In this document: positions 1-7,547 of the stretch, one piece after another
Position numbering within the stretch: the first letter of the stretch is position 1
Layout of the letters: every line of letters begins with the position of its first letter
Assembly (NCBI GenBank): GCA_944383035.1
Contig: CALWOE010000006.1
Coordinates: 1 to 38,371, forward strand
Direction of reading: 5' to 3'
From: an uncultured Clostridia bacterium
GTDB taxonomy: Bacteria > Bacillota > Clostridia > TANB77 > CAG-465
Length of the DNA stretch: 38,371 nt
The notes under the pieces: model-generated
The model's input: only the letters and a program-made list of their open reading frames with translations
Databases searched by the model: none
Told to the model about the DNA's origin: nothing
Translations under genes and position numbers: made by a program

Positions 1-158
1 CCTATATCTCCTATACTTGTTAATAAGAAACAATTACTAAACATATATGACATATCTGTTACATTTGATATATCCCACTTTCCTATATCTCTTATACTTG
101 TTAATGCGAAACAATTACTAAACACACTCCCCATATTAGTTACATTTGATGTATTCCA
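1..158. repeat. Exact 158-bp direct repeat, copy A
   Basis: Bases 1-158 are identical to 640-797 (offset 639); the first mismatch is a/g at 159/798. The repeat is in frame and covers about two DUF285 units of the surface protein. It may extend left of the window. Confidence 0.9.
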
Positions 159-3100
159 ATTTCCTATATCCAAGCTTGTTAACTTATTACAATTATAAAA
201 CATATATGACATATTTGTTACATTTGATGTATTCCAATTTCCTATATCCAAGCTTGTTAACTTATTACAATTATAAAACATATATGACATATTTGTTACA
301 TTTGATGTATTCCTATTCCCTATATTTCCTATACTTGTTAATGATCCACAACCATTAAACATATATGACATATTTGTTACATTTGAAGTATCCCAATTAC
401 TTAAATTAATGCTAACTAAATTATAACAATCATAGAACATATATTTCATATTTGTTACTTTTGATGTGTTCCAATTATTTAAATTCCCTATATATGTTAA
501 CTTACTACAACCACTAAACATATTACTCATACTTGTTACATTTGACGTATTCCAATTCCCTATATCTCCTATACTTGTTAATGAGAAACAATTACTAAAC
601 ATATATGACATATCTCTTACATTTGATGTATTCCAATTCCCTATATCTCCTATACTTGTTAATAAGAAACAATTACTAAACATATATGACATATCTGTTA
701 CATTTGATATATCCCACTTTCCTATATCTCTTATACTTGTTAATGCGAAACAATTACTAAACACACTCCCCATATTAGTTACATTTGATGTATTCCAGTT
801 TCCTATATCTTCTATACTTGTTAATGATTTACAATTAAAAAACATATCTTCCATATCCGTTACGTTTGATGTATCACAATTACTTAAATTAATGCTAACT
901 AAATTATAACACCCAAAGAACATTCTTGACATATCTGTTATATTTGATGTATCTAATAAATTAAAGTTTTCTATTTCTTTTAAATTGGTAAAACTATCAA
1001 ACATATAACTTGAATCTTCATTTGCTATTATATTTCCATCTCCTCCAATTGTTACAACATATCCACCATTATTATCATCTTCTACATATGCTATTACACT
1101 TCCGTTTTTGGCTTCTGATACATCCCATGATTCTATTGCACTACTTGGTATATTTATATCATTTTTAAATGTTACTTTTGTTATTCTAGATTGATATGGA
1201 CTTTTATGAAAATCTGTTGGCCAATTTTCCCCCCACGATTGTAATATTGGTTCTGGTTTTTCTAACGTAACATTTAAAGATTCTGATACTGTTATGTTTC
1301 CTGCTTTATCTGTTACTTGTGTCTTTATTTCATATGTTTTTCCTGCTGTTAATCCTTCAAATTTATTTGTTGTTTGTGTTTTCCATACTCCGTCTATATT
1401 TATAAGATAAATTGTTTTTGTGGTATCCAGTCCACTTGCTTCATAATTTTGTATTATTTGTTCTTTTTGATTTAAGATTACCGTTATACTATTTTGTGTT
1501 TTACTTTTTAATGTCGGAGCTGTCGTTGTTGGCGCTGTCTTATCTATATTTGTTACATCCTTTGTTACATGCTCTCCTTCTCTTAATTCTTCATCTACCA
1601 TTCTTGCTTCTATTTTACAGTTCCTATCCACTGTAAACTCTGCTGTGTAATCTGTCCAGTCCTTTGTCACACTTCCATCTGTTCCTACTATCCTATATTG
1701 CCCTTTTATTCCTGTTGGTGTCTTATATTCTATTTTTACACTCACATTTTGATTTGTCCATCCTGTTGGTGTTGTTGTTATTGTTATATTGTCTGGTCCT
1801 CCTGGTATTCCTATTAATACTACTCTTGTTGTCTCTGATTCTACATATCCATTTCCTACTTTATCTTTTGCTCTTGTTTTTACTTCATATGTTACATCTT
1901 CTTTTATATTCGTAAATACATTTGATTTTTGCCAACTACTCCATACTCCATTTTCCTTTATTGCATATTCTATACTTGTTTCTTCTATTCCTGTTTTTAT
2001 ATAGTCTACTGTTTCTTCTGCATCCTCTTGATTTGATGTTACTGTTATTCCTGCTTTTTTTACTTCTGTACTTGGGGCTGTTGCTGTTGGTCCTAATTTA
2101 TCTATATTTTTTATTTCTTTTGTTACTGCTTCCCCTGCTTCTTCTGATGTATTTACTATTCTTGCTTCTACTTTTCTATTTTTTTCTAATACCACATTTC
2201 CTGTATAATCTGTCCAATCTTTTTCTACACTTCCTTCACTTGTTACTATCCTATATTGCCCTCTTGTTGTATTATCTAGTTTATATGTTATACTTACTTC
2301 TACATTTCCATTTGTGTTTGTTGTTGGTGTCGCATTTATTGTTATATTACTACTTCCTCCTGGTACACCTGTTGTTCTTATTCTTACTATTTCTGATTCT
2401 GATACATTCCCTACTTTATCTGTTGCTTTTGTCCTTACTTCATATTCTGTATTTTGTTTTAAATATGTAAATTCATTACTTGTTTGATATACCCATGTTC
2501 CATCCTGATTTATTCCATATTCTGTTTTACTTGTATCTAGTCCACTTTTTCCATATTCTGTTGTTGCTGCTGCATCATCTTGTCTTAATGTTACTTTTAT
2601 ACTATTTGATGTTGCTGTAGCAGTTGGGGCTGTTGTTGTTGGTCCTAATTTATCTATATTTGTAACTGTTAGTGTACTTACTATTCCTGACTGATTACTT
2701 GTATCTATCATTCTTGCTTCTACTCTTCCATTTTTTTCTACTTCAAATACTCCTTTGTATTCTGTCCAATTTGTTATTACACTTCCATTATTTCCTACTA
2801 CTCTATACTGCCCTTTTGTATTTGTTGCTTGTTTATATGTTATTTCTATTTCTACATTTCCTTTTGTTAATGCTGTAGGTGTTGCTTTTATTGTTATATT
2901 ACTACTTCCTCCTGGTACTGTTCCTGTTTTTATACTTGCTATATTTGATTCTACATATCCATTTCCTGCTTTATCTTTTGCTCTTGTTTTTACTTGATAT
3001 GTTGTGTTTTGTGTTAGTCCTGTTAACTCACTTGTCTTTTGCCATACCCATGTTCCATTTTTATTTATTCCATATTCTATTGTTGCTTCATCTATTCCAC

Positions 3101-5771
3101 TTTTTCCATATTCTGTTGTTGCTGCTGCATCATCTTGTGCTATTTTTACTGTTATACTATTTGATGTTACTTCTCCTGTTGGTGCTGTATTGTTTGGTGC
3201 TAATTTATCTATATTTGTTATTTCTTTTCTTACTACTTCACCTGCTTGATTACTACTGTTTACTATTCTTCCTTCTATTACACAATTTTTATCTACTGTA
3301 AACTTACCTGTGTAATCTGTCCAGTCTTTTATTACGCTTCCATCGTTTCCTACTACTCTATACTGTCCTTTTGTTCCATCCATTAATACATAACTTATTT
3401 GTATTTCTACTGTTTTATTTGTGTATTCTTCTGGACTTTGGCTTATTTTGATATTTTCTTCTCCTCCTGGTAGACTTGTTGTTATTACTTCTAATTCTTT
3501 TGATTCTTTTGTGTTTCCTACTTTATCTGTTGCCTTTGTTTTTATTTTATATGTTACTCCTGGTGTTAAATTACTAAATACATTTGATTTTTGCCATGTA
3601 TATGCTCCTCTTGTGCTTATTCCATACTCTGTTTTACTTTCATCTAGTCCTGAACTTGCATATTCTGTTGTTACACTTGCATCTTTTTGGTTTAATGTTA
3701 CTGTTATTTCATTTTCTGTTGATAGTGCACTTGGTGTATCATCTGTTGGCGCTAGTTTATCTATATTTGCTATTTGCATTGTTACTACTGTTCCTGTTTG
3801 GCCTTTATCATCTATTATTCTTGCTTCTATTCTTCCATTTTTTGTTACACTAAATGCATTTTTATATTCTGTCCAATTTGTTATTACATTCCCATCATTT
3901 CCTATCACTCTATACTGTCCTTTTGTATTTTCTATTAATTTATATGTTATACTTACTGTTACATCTTTATTTGTGTTTGTTGTTGGGTTTGGACTTATTT
4001 TTATGTTTTCACTTCCTCCTGGTATTCCTTTTGTTCTTGTTTTTACTATTTCTGACTCTACATATCCATTTCCTACTTTATCTATTACTCTTGTTCTTAC
4101 TTCATATTCTCTGTTTTGTTCTAATCCCTCAAATATATTACTCTTTTGCCATACCCAACTTCCATTTAGATATATTCCATATTCTGTTTTGGTTTCATCT
4201 AGTCCTGAACTTGCATACTCACTTGTTGCTTGGGCATCTTTTTGATTTAATGTTAATTCTAAACTATTTATGTTTTCTTTTACACTTGGTCCTTCTTTTG
4301 TTGGATTTAATTTATCTATGTTTTCTATTTTATATTCTTTTTCTATTTTTCCTTCTATTCTTATATATATTGTTGCATTTTTATCTACTTCAAATTCTCC
4401 TTCATATTCTTTCCATCCACTTCCTGTTCCTGCTGTTTCTATTCTGTATTCTTTCTTTCCTTCTCCTACATATTCTATACTTACTTTTACATTTTCATTT
4501 GTCAAATTTGTTTTATCCACATTTATATTTATCTGGTATGTTTCTCCTTCTGTATTTACTAATATTTCTTTTTTATTTACATTTCCCGCTTTATCTTCTA
4601 CTTCTATTATTATTTTATATTCTTTTCCTGCTTCTAAATTTCCAAATTCATAACTATTTTCTTTTATCTTTCCTGTATCTTCTACTCCTTCTATATAATA
4701 TCTATAACTTTCTATTCCACTTAGTTTATCTTCTGTATTTACTTCTACTTTTATTTTTTCTTGCATTTTTTCTATCTTTGGTTCATATTCTTCTGGCTCT
4801 GTATTATCTATTCTTACATAATATGTCTCACTTACTTTTTCTCCTATTTTTGCTGTTATTCTTGTTTCTCCTTCTTTTGTTACACTTATACTACTTCCTC
4901 TATTTATCTCTTCATATTCTCCGTCATCTATTTTATACTCTATTTTACTTGTATTTCCTGTATTTTCTATCTTTAATACTTCTTCTCCTCTTATCCATTC
5001 TCCACTTTTATTTCCTTTTGTACTTACTACTTCTGGTCTTTCATTTTCTGCTACTTCTACTTCTTCTTTTTCTTTTGTCTTTATTTCTTTTTTATTTACT
5101 TCATATTCTTCTTTACTTTCTAATACTACTTTTCCTTCTAAATAATATACTGTTCCTTCTTTTAATCCCTCAAATGAAAAATTTGCACTTTTTTCACTTG
5201 TTGTTATTCTCTTTGTCTCTTTTTCTTCTTTATTTTCTTCTCTTATACTTACCTCAAAATATTCTACTTTTTCCCCTTCTTTTACTTCTGCTATTTCTAT
5301 TTTTCCTACTACATCTTCATATCCTACTTCTATCTCTTTTAATGCTACCATTTCTTCTTTTTTGGATACTTCTATTTCTTTTGCCCAGTTTTCTTCTTCT
5401 TTTTCATTTCCTATATATACTAACTTTCCATTTACTATTTCTACTTTTTGCAAGTAATCACTGTTTTCTATACTTGGCATTATTTTTTCTAGTTCTTCTC
5501 CTGAGGCATTAAATTCATCTCTTTTAAATTTTCCGTTTGTGTCTATTTCTTGTTGGGCTATATATGCTTCTAGCTCTGATTTTAACCCCGTTACCTCGTT
5601 TTTAAATGTTGCCTCTTTTGCTTTTCCTATTGGTGCATTTTGGCTTAATGATATTATTGTTATTCCTGCTAGTATTATCACTATTATTATTGTTATTACT
5701 AGTACTATTAAACTTACTCCTTTTTTTTCTTTTGCTTTTTTATTTAAACCTCTTATATTTATATTTTTCAT
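1..5771 (-). CDS. Giant repeat-rich surface protein with prepilin-like N-terminus, Ig/FN3-like repeats and DUF285 (BspA-like) repeats; 3' end beyond window
   Basis: The frame is open from an ATG at 5771 to the left edge, at least 1,923 codons; I checked the phase at both ends and at two internal points. A ribosome-binding site (AGAGGT) precedes the start. Residues 1-18 are basic and end in KKG; a hydrophobic helix follows (about 20-42), resembling a type IV prepilin leader, although the usual Glu at +5 is Val. Residues about 50-330 are rich in Glu and Lys. Six Ig/FN3-like repeats of about 185 residues follow (NIDKLAPT, TEYG, DKVGN and PGG motifs), then a linker, then at least 12 DUF285 units (TSNVTNMSYMF type). 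BspA-like proteins with these repeats are surface adhesins. The C-terminal anchor is not visible. A cell-surface adhesin is inferred; no ligand can be named. Confidence 0.9.
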   Translation of the reverse strand, partial: MKNINIRGLNKKAKEKKGVSLIVLVITIIIVIILAGITIISLSQNAPIGKAKEATFKNEVTGLKSELEAYIAQQEIDTNGKFKRDEFNASGEELEKIMPSIENSDYLQKVEIVNGKLVYIGNEKEEENWAKEIEVSKKEEMVALKEIEVGYEDVVGKIEIAEVKEGEKVEYFEVSIREENKEEKETKRITTSEKSANFSFEGLKEGTVYYLEGKVVLESKEEYEVNKKEIKTKEKEEVEVAENERPEVVSTKGNKSGEWIRGEEVLKIENTGNTSKIEYKIDDGEYEEINRGSSISVTKEGETRITAKIGEKVSETYYVRIDNTEPEEYEPKIEKMQEKIKVEVNTEDKLSGIESYRYYIEGVEDTGKIKENSYEFGNLEAGKEYKIIIEVEDKAGNVNKKEILVNTEGETYQININVDKTNLTNENVKVSIEYVGEGKKEYRIETAGTGSGWKEYEGEFEVDKNATIYIRIEGKIEKEYKIENIDKLNPTKEGPSVKENINSLELTLNQKDAQATSEYASSGLDETKTEYGIYLNGSWVWQKSNIFEGLEQNREYEVRTRVIDKVGNGYVESEIVKTRTKGIPGGSENIKISPNPTTNTNKDVTVSITYKLIENTKGQYRVIGNDGNVITNWTEYKNAFSVTKNGRIEARIIDDKGQTGTVVTMQIANIDKLAPTDDTPSALSTENEITVTLNQKDASVTTEYASSGLDESKTEYGISTRGAYTWQKSNVFSNLTPGVTYKIKTKATDKVGNTKESKELEVITTSLPGGEENIKISQSPEEYTNKTVEIQISYVLMDGTKGQYRVVGNDGSVIKDWTDYTGKFTVDKNCVIEGRIVNSSNQAGEVVRKEITNIDKLAPNNTAPTGEVTSNSITVKIAQDDAAATTEYGKSGIDEATIEYGINKNGTWVWQKTSELTGLTQNTTYQVKTRAKDKAGNGYVESNIASIKTGTVPGGSSNITIKATPTALTKGNVEIEITYKQATNTKGQYRVVGNNGSVITNWTEYKGVFEVEKNGRVEARMIDTSNQSGIVSTLTVTNIDKLGPTTTAPTATATSNSIKVTLRQDDAAATTEYGKSGLDTSKTEYGINQDGTWVYQTSNEFTYLKQNTEYEVRTKATDKVGNVSESEIVRIRTTGVPGGSSNITINATPTTNTNGNVEVSITYKLDNTTRGQYRIVTSEGSVEKDWTDYTGNVVLEKNRKVEARIVNTSEEAGEAVTKEIKNIDKLGPTATAPSTEVKKAGITVTSNQEDAEETVDYIKTGIEETSIEYAIKENGVWSSWQKSNVFTNIKEDVTYEVKTRAKDKVGNGYVESETTRVVLIGIPGGPDNITITTTPTGWTNQNVSVKIEYKTPTGIKGQYRIVGTDGSVTKDWTDYTAEFTVDRNCKIEARMVDEELREGEHVTKDVTNIDKTAPTTTAPTLKSKTQNSITVILNQKEQIIQNYEASGLDTTKTIYLINIDGVWKTQTTNKFEGLTAGKTYEIKTQVTDKAGNITVSESLNVTLEKPEPILQSWGENWPTDFHKSPYQSRITKVTFKNDINIPSSAIESWDVSEAKNGSVIAYVEDDNNGGYVVTIGGDGNIIANEDSSYMFDSFTNLKEIENFNLLDTSNITDMSRMFFGCYNLVSINLSNCDTSNVTDMEDMFFNCKSLTSIEDIGNWNTSNVTNMGSVFSNCFALTSIRDIGKWDISNVTDMSYMFSNCFLLTSIGDIGNWNTSNVRDMSYMFSNCFSLTSIGDIGNWNTSNVTSMSNMFSGCSKLTYIGNLNNWNTSKVTNMKYMFYDCYNLVSINLSNWDTSNVTNMSYMFNGCGSLTSIGNIGNRNTSNVTNMSYMFYNCNKLTSLDIGNWNTSNVTNMSYMFYNCNKLTSLDIGNWNTSNVTNMGSVFSNCFALTSIRDIGKWDISNVTDMSYMFSNCFLLTSIGDI
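141..296. repeat. Two tandem identical 78-bp units
   Basis: Units start at 141 and 219, and a diverging third begins at 297. Each unit is 26 codons, so gain or loss of a unit keeps the surface-protein frame. Identity at DNA level, not only protein level, points to recent duplication. Confidence 0.9.
640..797. repeat. Exact 158-bp direct repeat, copy B
   Basis: Second copy of bases 1-158, inside the same DUF285-encoding part of the surface-protein gene. The spacing of 639 bp is a multiple of three, so recombination between copies would delete 213 codons in frame. Confidence 0.9.
1539..4317 (-). repeat. Ig/FN3-like domain repeats, period 552-558 bp
   Basis: The codons for the NIDKL/NIDKT motif recur at 4311, 3756, 3204, 2649, 2097 and 1539, giving intervals of 555, 552, 555, 552 and 558 bp. 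Each unit encodes two sub-blocks: one with TEYG...TW/VWQKSN...DKVGN, and one with PGG..NI.I...QYRVVG.DGSV..WT.Y. Unlike the DUF285 units these copies differ throughout, so they are older duplications. Confidence 0.88.
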
Positions 5772-5818
5772 ATATACATTACCTCTCTTAATATTTTATA
5801 TCGTACACACAAAATATT

Positions 5819-5840
5819 AAAATGGAATATTTTCCATTTT
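5819..5840 (-). other. 9-bp hairpin in the surface-gene 5' leader
   Basis: Perfect inverted repeat 5819-5827 / 5832-5840 with a 4-base loop, between the predicted promoter and the surface-gene start. No U-run follows, so it is not a typical terminator; it could affect transcript stability. Confidence 0.4.
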
Positions 5841-5869
5841 GAGATTCTATATTATTATGTAATTTTACA

Positions 5870-5899
5870 ATAATACTTATACATATTTTTAGACGTCAA
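5870..5899 (-). promoter_or_regulatory. Candidate sigma-A promoter for the surface-protein gene
   Basis: On the minus strand TTGACG (5894-5899) is followed after 18 bases by TATTAT (5870-5875), predicting a leader of about 90 nt. The -35 box overlaps the end of the mini-ORF and abuts the palindrome at 5900-5933. Confidence 0.45.
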
Positions 5900-5999
5900 A
5901 AACCAATACTAGTTCAGTTACTAGTATTGGTTTACATTTTTTTCCAATCAATAGTTTATACAGTTCTCTCTGTTTGTGTGTGTGTGTAAGTTGTTTCAT
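5889..5999 (-). CDS. 36-residue mini-ORF upstream of the surface-protein gene
   Basis: ATG at 5999 lies 5 bases after a perfect GGAGG (6005-6009), and a good promoter lies about 50 bases upstream. The predicted peptide begins MKQLTHTHKQRELYK and ends in a hydrophobic stretch (PILVTELVLVFDV). The THTH codons come from a 13-bp TG tract (5975-5987), where slippage by one repeat would change the frame. The last third lies in a 14-bp palindrome. I recognise no family. It could be a small protein, a leader peptide or chance. Confidence 0.45.
   Translation of the reverse strand: MKQLTHTHKQRELYKLLIGKKCKPILVTELVLVFDV
5900..5933. terminator. 14-bp perfect palindrome, possible terminator or attenuator
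   Basis: Arms 5900-5913 and 5920-5933 with a 6-base loop. On the minus strand it ends in a short U-run (five U, then G); on the plus strand a T-rich run follows at 5936-5943. It sits at the end of the mini-ORF and just before the surface-gene promoter, so it may end the short upstream transcript. Confidence 0.5.
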
Positions 6000-6051
6000 G
6001 ATTTCCTCCATTCCGAAAAATTATGTATACTTTCATTTACAACCTAAGATA

Positions 6052-6080
6052 ATTATATATTTATTATAAACTTTTTTCAA
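6052..6080 (-). promoter_or_regulatory. Sigma-A promoter for the mini-ORF/leader transcript
   Basis: TTGAAA (6075-6080), a 17-base spacer, then a perfect TATAAT (6052-6057) on the minus strand. The predicted start near 6045 places GGAGG about 37 bases into the transcript. Confidence 0.65.
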
Positions 6081-6120
6081 CTGTTTTCGATTATTTTTTA
6101 TAAAATATAAAAAAATAAAT

Positions 6121-6146
6121 AAAAAAACCGAGTAAAATCTCGGCTT
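6121..6146 (-). terminator. Terminator of the M18 aminopeptidase operon
   Basis: The minus strand forms an 8-bp stem (6139-6146 with 6125-6132; GC core CCGAG/CTCGG) with the run of U at 6121-6127 closing and following it. It lies 16 bp past the stop. Confidence 0.8.
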
Positions 6147-6161
6147 AAATACTATTTAAAA

Positions 6162-7547
6162 TTAATTTTCAAAAAATACTTTATATGCTCTATATGTCAT
6201 ATACACATCATACTTTGAAGTTACTTCAAATGGCGAATGCATTGCAAGAACCGGTGTACCACAATCTATAACATCAACACCTTTTTGTGCTAATATATAT
6301 GCAATTGTGCCTCCACCACCTTTTCCAATCTTTCCTAAAGTTCCAAGTTGAAAAAATACATTATTTTTCTCAAATATTTGCATTACTTCAGATACATATT
6401 TTGCATTTGCATCACTTGCATTATATTTTCCACCACTACCAGTATATTTTTCAAGAGCAATACCACATCCAAGCATATTTCCATTTTGAATATCTGATAC
6501 TTCATCATGAACTGGATCAACGCAAGTAGATACATCAGCTGACAACATTTTAGAATTATAATATACTTCTAATAAATCTGCATCTTCACCAGTAAGTTTT
6601 AAAAGCTTATTCATAAACATATCAAATGTAAGTGAACTCATTGAAGTATTGCCAAAACTTCCAATTTCTTCTTTATCTACAAGTAAAGCAATAGATGTTT
6701 TGTTTAATTTTTTTGAATCAATTTCAGTTATTGCTTTTAATGTTGTATATGCACAAACTCTATCATCTTGACCATAAGCACCAATCATACTTTTATCAAA
6801 TCCAACATATTTTGCACTAAAAGCTGGTACAAAAGATATTTCACTTCTTGCAAAATCTATTTCAGTTATATTATATTTTTTATTTAATATTTTAAGAATA
6901 TTATTTTTTACAGTTTTATTTTTTGAATCTTTTTCTTCAATATCTTTGTTACTTCCAATTAAAATGCTCATTTTTTCTGGATCAATAAAATCATTTGCTT
7001 TAAGTTTCATTTGGTCATAAGATAAATGAGGTAATAAATCTGCTATTGTAAAGCATAATGTATCAGAAGTATCTCCTACTCTAATATTTATTTTATTACC
7101 ATCTTTATCATAAATAACTCCATACATTGCAAGTGGTATAGACATCCATTGATATTTTTTTATCCCACCATAAAATTGTGTTTTAAGTAAAGCTGCATTG
7201 TTCTTTTCATAAAGTGGCATTGGTTTTAAATCAAGTCTTGGACAATCAACATGAGCTCCTACCATGTTTACACCATTTACTAATTTATCTTTTCCAATTA
7301 CAGCAGCATATAACGATTTTTCTTTATTTACAAAATATACTTTCATAGACTTTTGTAGCTTATTTACTTCTTCTATATTTTTAAATCCATTTTTCTTTAA
7401 TATTTCTATTGCATTTTCTATACATAAATATTCTGTTTTAGATTTATCTACAAATTCTATATACTCATCAGCTAATTTATCTGCATTTTGTAATTCATCA
7501 TCTGTTAAATTACTATATATATCTTTTTTCTCATACTTTAAATTCAT
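6162..7547 (-). CDS. M18 family aminopeptidase
   Basis: At 461 residues the length is normal for the family. M18 enzymes are cytosolic di-zinc aminopeptidases that remove N-terminal residues from peptides. The metal and catalytic set is complete: H99 and D101 (GAHVDCPRLD), D261 (GQDDR), E293/E294 (DKEEIGS), D338 (SADVS) and H437 (AMHSPFE). ATG at 7547 follows a strong AGGAGG. It is the last gene of the operon, 50 bp after an M24 peptidase-like gene, and a terminator follows. Together with the solute-binding-like protein at the operon head this fits peptide use, an inference from context. It is the ApeA/Lap4 type by overall likeness. Confidence 0.92.
   Translation of the reverse strand: MNLKYEKKDIYSNLTDDELQNADKLADEYIEFVDKSKTEYLCIENAIEILKKNGFKNIEEVNKLQKSMKVYFVNKEKSLYAAVIGKDKLVNGVNMVGAHVDCPRLDLKPMPLYEKNNAALLKTQFYGGIKKYQWMSIPLAMYGVIYDKDGNKINIRVGDTSDTLCFTIADLLPHLSYDQMKLKANDFIDPEKMSILIGSNKDIEEKDSKNKTVKNNILKILNKKYNITEIDFARSEISFVPAFSAKYVGFDKSMIGAYGQDDRVCAYTTLKAITEIDSKKLNKTSIALLVDKEEIGSFGNTSMSSLTFDMFMNKLLKLTGEDADLLEVYYNSKMLSADVSTCVDPVHDEVSDIQNGNMLGCGIALEKYTGSGGKYNASDANAKYVSEVMQIFEKNNVFFQLGTLGKIGKGGGGTIAYILAQKGVDVIDCGTPVLAMHSPFEVTSKYDVYMTYRAYKVFFEN

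Follow-up and report, generated by a model that had tools for sequence, protein, structure and literature searches.

At the left edge of contig CALWOE010000006.1 of an uncultured, gut-type Clostridia bacterium with a small genome, a gene of more than 1,900 codons encodes a surface protein headed by a prepilin-like leader with valine rather than glutamate at position +5. The window analysed here is this entire contig (38,371 nt; contig C6), from a source genome of 1.28 Mb in 71 contigs. An acidic +5 residue was once considered near-universal in type IV pilins, and the salt bridge between Glu5 and the N-terminus of the neighbouring subunit gives this residue what is seen as a central role in pilus assembly. 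The locus raises the question of whether a giant protein without this residue is a pilin. We consider it probable that it is a giant modular type IV pilin, which would be cleaved by an A24 prepilin peptidase and displayed on type IV pili (T4P). Such a protein is ordinary within its own clade yet missed by the standard motif, and the T4P system has two further oddities, namely in-operon pilins that lack Glu5 and a fusion of A24_N to a pilin.

The gene occupies positions 3–5771 of the minus strand as a single ATG-started frame of 1,923 codons with no internal stops, open at the contig edge where its 3′ end is missing. A predicted ribosome binding site with a good Shine-Dalgarno sequence, AGAGAGG, lies upstream of the ATG (5772–5790, minus strand), and the preliminary description of one minus-strand gene of more than 1,900 codons is thus borne out. 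From the translation, the visible part of the protein has a computed mass of ~214 kDa and a pI of 4.85. All domains are on the minus strand. A hydrophilic basic leader (residues 1–18; 5718–5771) reads KEKKG|VSLIVLVITIII, with Gly at −1 and predicted cleavage after G18. It is followed by a hydrophobic N-terminal helix (residues 19–44; 5640–5717) with Val at +5, in keeping with a pilin helix alpha1 of ~21 hydrophobic residues. Both belong to a pilin module of residues 1–135 (5367–5771), delimited by a structure model and paralogue comparison and made up of helix alpha1, a beta-hairpin and a short helix. Next is a Glu/Lys-rich region with weak Ig/FN3-like similarity that ends in DKAGN (residues 136–393; 4593–5366). 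Glu and Lys account for 44% of residues 120–260, so the composition of the stalk proposed earlier stands; its position straight after the helix does not, since the folded pilin module of ~140 residues intervenes.

The six Ig/FN3-like repeats noted beforehand were recovered as six tandem Ig+FN3 bimodules of ~171–185 aa each (residues 394–1492; 1296–4592), marked by seven DKxGN ends at residues 393, 564, 749, 933, 1118, 1303 and 1488; five of the six units are mutually 47–57% identical. The visible protein closes with a DUF285/PARCEL domain (residues 1502–1923; 3–1268) consisting of an N-cap and ~12 repeats of 26–27 aa, which continues past the contig end. Matches to DUF285 (PF03382; E 1.3e-85, 283.5 bits) and PARCEL (TIGR02167; E 6.4e-92, 300.3 bits) were both above the curated cut-offs. 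The array had been called BspA-type DUF285; the DUF285 part of that assignment holds, and the BspA LRR_5 type does not, as a family scan of the giant protein gave no match to LRR_5 (PF13306), which is present on the paralogue L043:143-2044. Overall, the protein has the layout of a modular pilin, with functional domains of non-pilin type attached behind a pilin module.

The machinery for such a pilin is encoded in the genome. A T4P operon on contig C3 contains a PilN-like gene, PilB, PilT, PilC, two pilins with the same leader as the giant protein, an A24_N gene and a further minor pilin; three small genes at the PilN/PilO position had no clear family match. Both same-leader pilins read KKG|ISLIVLVVTII and are Glu5-less, and in this clade the missing Glu5 therefore cannot be used to tell filament subunits from other proteins. 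The KKG leader without Glu at +5 was correctly described at the outset and is shared with the pilins of the T4P operon. The objection that the genome might lack a prepilin peptidase fails because an A24 prepilin peptidase is present as a separate gene on contig C45, with intact D...PD and GMGFGD (GxGD) motifs and both catalytic aspartates.

In the proposed mechanism, the C45 peptidase would cut the class III leader (residues 1–18) after Gly18, and the N-terminal helix and pilin module (to about residue 135) would insert into the T4P made by the C3 operon. More than 1,700 residues, comprising the Glu/Lys linker, the Ig/FN3 repeats and the DUF285/PARCEL domain, would then form an outward-pointing arm for adhesion or ligand binding. 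By analogy with PilB and PilC of Streptococcus sanguinis (PMC8179133), the head would most likely be a filament or tip subunit and the remainder a display arm. The earlier notion of a very large pilin-like adhesin is strengthened in its prepilin-like part by the A24 peptidase and the leader of the operon pilins, while cleavage, filament display and adhesion are what we infer.

The leader had been treated as an oddity of a single gene, with the suggestion that other proteins carrying it be sought. Using the first 87 residues as query, a genome search returned 30 matches, and a profile built from 16 of these gave 32. About 30 proteins of this genome carry the leader, and it is the standard pilin leader of the clade. 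In the portion of the source genome that was read, a strict finder returned 24 distinct leaders, whose +5 residues are V (14), I (6), A (2), S (1) and T (1), without any acidic one. The C-terminal modules of the paralogues are unrelated to one another and include BspA LRR_5, DUF285, fn3, Laminin_G_3, Flg_new and HYR. About ten near-identical Glu5-less modular pilins with one shared head, ~640 aa in complete copies, are scattered across contigs (L044, L043:140-2044, L045, L049, L050, L054, L056 and L057), and an LRR_5 module was found on L043:143-2044, the sole member of this set that was scanned.

Operons on contigs found via the A24_N protein were compared between 23 near relatives (uncultured Clostridia and Clostridium sp.) and 57 farther loci. 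The near relatives carry 32 small in-operon pilins with Ala5 (leader KG|ITLVALVVTIIVLLILAGV), and an acidic +5 residue (Asp5 or Glu5) is almost confined to the pilin after PilD. Their operon PilD keeps A24_N but is without GxGD in 21/23 (near-relative loci: L066-L084, L086, L088, L089 and L092). At the farther loci, 99/114 leaders have Glu5, which indicates that the leader finder is not blind to this residue, and GxGD is retained in 51/54 PilD.

The distribution of the leader was examined in 36 genomes of the family, with T4P-positive genomes defined by the presence of A24_N and a PilC-type T2SSF protein. All 19 T4P-positive genomes carry 7–56 leader proteins, and 15 of the 17 T4P-negative genomes carry 1–3. 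The co-occurrence of T4P and leader expansion gave a Fisher value of 2e-8, uncorrected for kinship. Across the order, the leader was present in 130/143 genomes.

These patterns bear on the best-surviving alternative, in which the giant protein is processed by A24 but, being Glu5-less, does not enter filaments and instead remains a membrane-anchored pilin-like surface protein whose repeat stalk spans the wall. An arm this long at the C-terminus would be hard to fit into the body of a filament, and well suited to crossing the wall from a membrane anchor. However, the operon's own pilins are Glu5-less too, as are the small Ala5 pilins of the relatives, and leader number tracks T4P presence. We regard this alternative as unlikely, though worth keeping in view.

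The pilin identity of the module is supported by a profile search of PDB sequences, by operon context and by co-occurrence. The module, common to most paralogues and also found in relatives from other genera, ends in a G-x-L-x-Y-x-G hairpin, and its model has pLDDT >90 over most of residues 51–130 with a long helix, a beta-hairpin and a short helix; this one hairpin is the predicted counterpart of the antiparallel beta-sheet that a globular pilin head has behind alpha1. In an alignment of 23 members, the −1 Gly is invariant (23/23) and several helix positions are conserved. When the module profile was compared with PDB sequences, solved pilins ranked first, led by Geobacter PilA (6e-6) and followed by PilE1 and MshA. 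A second alternative, that the protein starts with an ordinary signal anchor that is not cleaved and whose likeness to a prepilin goes no further than basic residues and a hydrophobic helix, would fit the missing +5 acid, Pfam N_methyl matches that are weak at best and the paralogue L058:4534-5946, in which a related module follows a plain helix without the motif. Against it stand the invariant glycine and conserved helix positions, the same leader on the T4P-operon pilins and the ranking of pilins first among PDB chains, and we judge it improbable.

Several results weigh against the giant protein being a T4P-displayed pilin. Glu at +5 is absent, and Pfam N_methyl (PF07963) has no match in the giant's module and weak matches in 3/20 modules, with a best E of 0.027. 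A Foldseek search of the module model returned no match in PDB, nor did VIA-align of the pilin-module model against PDB. Two family genomes, G023 (88% complete) and G026, carry 29 and 35 leader proteins with no T4P-type PilC or A24_N in their assemblies, reflecting either an assembly gap or loss of T4P while the leader genes were kept. On a UvrC tree, the T4P state changes three times and leader expansion twice; these are too few independent changes for a formal test of co-occurrence to reach significance, and the co-occurrence is therefore of limited weight and its Fisher value not proof. Lastly, the C-terminus of the giant gene lies beyond the contig edge and is not recoverable from the current assembly.

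At that edge, positions 1–158 are an exact 158-bp copy of positions 640–797, which lie inside the DUF285 array of the giant gene, and the contig probably breaks here because this stretch duplicates part of the same repeat array. For the leftward extension proposed in the preliminary description, contig C5, with a DUF285 fragment at its start, was rejected as the continuation on the basis of zero overlap and an upstream stop. That separate repeat genes were wrongly joined in the assembly to give the giant length, as the repeat at the contig end and the fragmented assembly might suggest, is very improbable, since the frame is unbroken across non-identical repeat units (47–57% identity), genome G017 has closed genes of 1,636–2,221 aa bearing the same head, and a join of pilin and DUF285 also occurs on contig C2 of the source genome and, in similar form, in G026 (L163).

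The closed G017 relatives with the same head measure 2,221, 1,852, 1,676 and 1,636 aa. The C-terminal ends read from closed relatives had no LPXTG and no hydrophobic tail (sortase itself was not searched for), leaving the N-terminal helix as the only visible attachment. The sister genome G003 has a modular pilin with this class of leader (L254:2356-4146, contig C5 of that genome) that ends in a 140-nt variable repeat (4004-4143). A template copy (4360-4499) lies 3′ of the pilin gene, near a reverse transcriptase with an IGNYTSQ motif (5661-6707), and 13/13 mismatches between the variable and template repeats fall at template adenines. This is the hallmark, at the sequence level, of a diversity-generating retroelement, here predicted to target the C-terminal module of the pilin, and it suggests that at least this G003 member binds a ligand. 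In the source genome, a search for such a retroelement found no reverse transcriptase.

The A24_N gene of the source operon (L048:7285-8109, contig C3) encodes an A24_N (methylase/zinc) domain that is fused to a Glu5-bearing prepilin (KKRG|VFISEIVVGM) and has no A24 protease domain. PF01478 gave no second match at this operon 'PilD', and the translation consists of A24_N and a pilin. The same fusion, with four invariant cysteines in A24_N, is present in 18/19 T4P-bearing genomes of five genera (orthologues L185-L203), and in G015 A24_N and the pilin are adjacent separate genes; because of this recurrence and the adjacent halves, the possibility that the fusion is an error was rejected. The protease half is encoded by the separate A24 gene, and an A24 match was found in 31/36 family genomes. 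In a Foldseek search with the model of the pilin half, XcpGHIJK and EpsI/EpsJ were among the top ranks (E 0.02–0.2, probability ~1, TMt up to 0.70), and the modelled fold is that of a minor pseudopilin of the GspI/EpsI type. Positive-inside topology suggests that the leader of the fusion pilin would face the cytoplasm, the site of A24 action, so that A24 cleavage would release the pilin from its methylase. No mention of the leader sequence or of an A24_N fusion was found in the literature, although journal coverage was incomplete and absence is not proven. The split peptidase is a natural separation of methylation from proteolysis and could help to explain why pilins are methylated.

Like the GspI, EpsI and XcpI minor pseudopilins, which its C-terminal half resembles, the fusion keeps the +5 Glu; unlike them, its pilin is linked covalently to a polytopic A24_N domain that precedes it. 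The operon shares PilN-like, PilB, PilT, PilC, A24 and A24_N components with the T4aP systems of monoderms such as Clostridium and S. sanguinis, but differs in its Glu5-less pilins and in an operon peptidase without the protease half, whose A24_N half continues into a Glu5 pilin of GspI-like type. Glu5-less subunits have elsewhere been located at the pilus tip (PMC10191384, PMC9934059), and relative to such tip subunits the Glu5 pattern of the present clade looks inverted. With complete T4P operons and Glu5-less in-operon pilins, this lineage makes the Glu5 assembly rule directly testable.

The giant protein resembles the modular pilins typified by S. sanguinis PilB and PilC in grafting a large adhesive module onto a small N-terminal pilin module, and fn3 and concanavalin A-like lectin C-terminal domains occur in both groups (PMC8179133). 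The present class differs in being Glu5-less, in reaching 1,900–2,200 residues and in numbering dozens per small genome. That survey collected modular pilins with the Glu5 motif IPR012902, its most extreme named case having 860 residues, and the present class is therefore outside its reach. More generally, a large class of gut-bacterial surface proteins, the largest modular pilins of this analysis among them, escapes surveys based on N_methyl or IPR012902. The DUF285/PARCEL surface proteins of Mollicutes and others (PMC2996958) have the same 25–27 aa repeat, with PF03382 and TIGR02167. In the available sections of that paper these proteins are targeted by a lipobox, signal peptide or transmembrane anchor, where the giant protein instead has a prepilin-like leader, and nowhere does the paper use the word pilin.

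A wider picture can be offered tentatively, as a serious possibility that we would place somewhat below an even chance. A lineage of small-genome Clostridia may build T4P from Glu5-less pilins, with its sole acidic +5 pilin, GspI-like, fused behind the A24_N methylase of a split peptidase, the methylase domain serving effectively as the leader peptide of that pilin. Such pili would show modular pilins ranging from small to >200 kDa, some of them diversified by retroelements.

A few minor observations concern the paralogues and relatives. Giant modular pilins of G017 (L204, L205 and L206) have a variable C-terminal domain with a GFRAV motif, and most of their differences fall within the last ~60 residues, but the one reverse transcriptase that a search of G017 turned up resembles the group II intron type. 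In the source genome, several of the near-identical paralogues lie at the ends of contigs and are the probable cause of breaks in the assembly, and the match at L049:785-874 contains an in-frame stop. The pilin-like module of L058:4534-5946 has a plain hydrophobic helix with no KKG leader motif. A second class of Glu5-less pilins is present at L046:3548-9502 and L047:2457-7556, three per stretch; their helix is followed by a YYxxNxxxP-like motif reminiscent of GspG-type pseudopilins.
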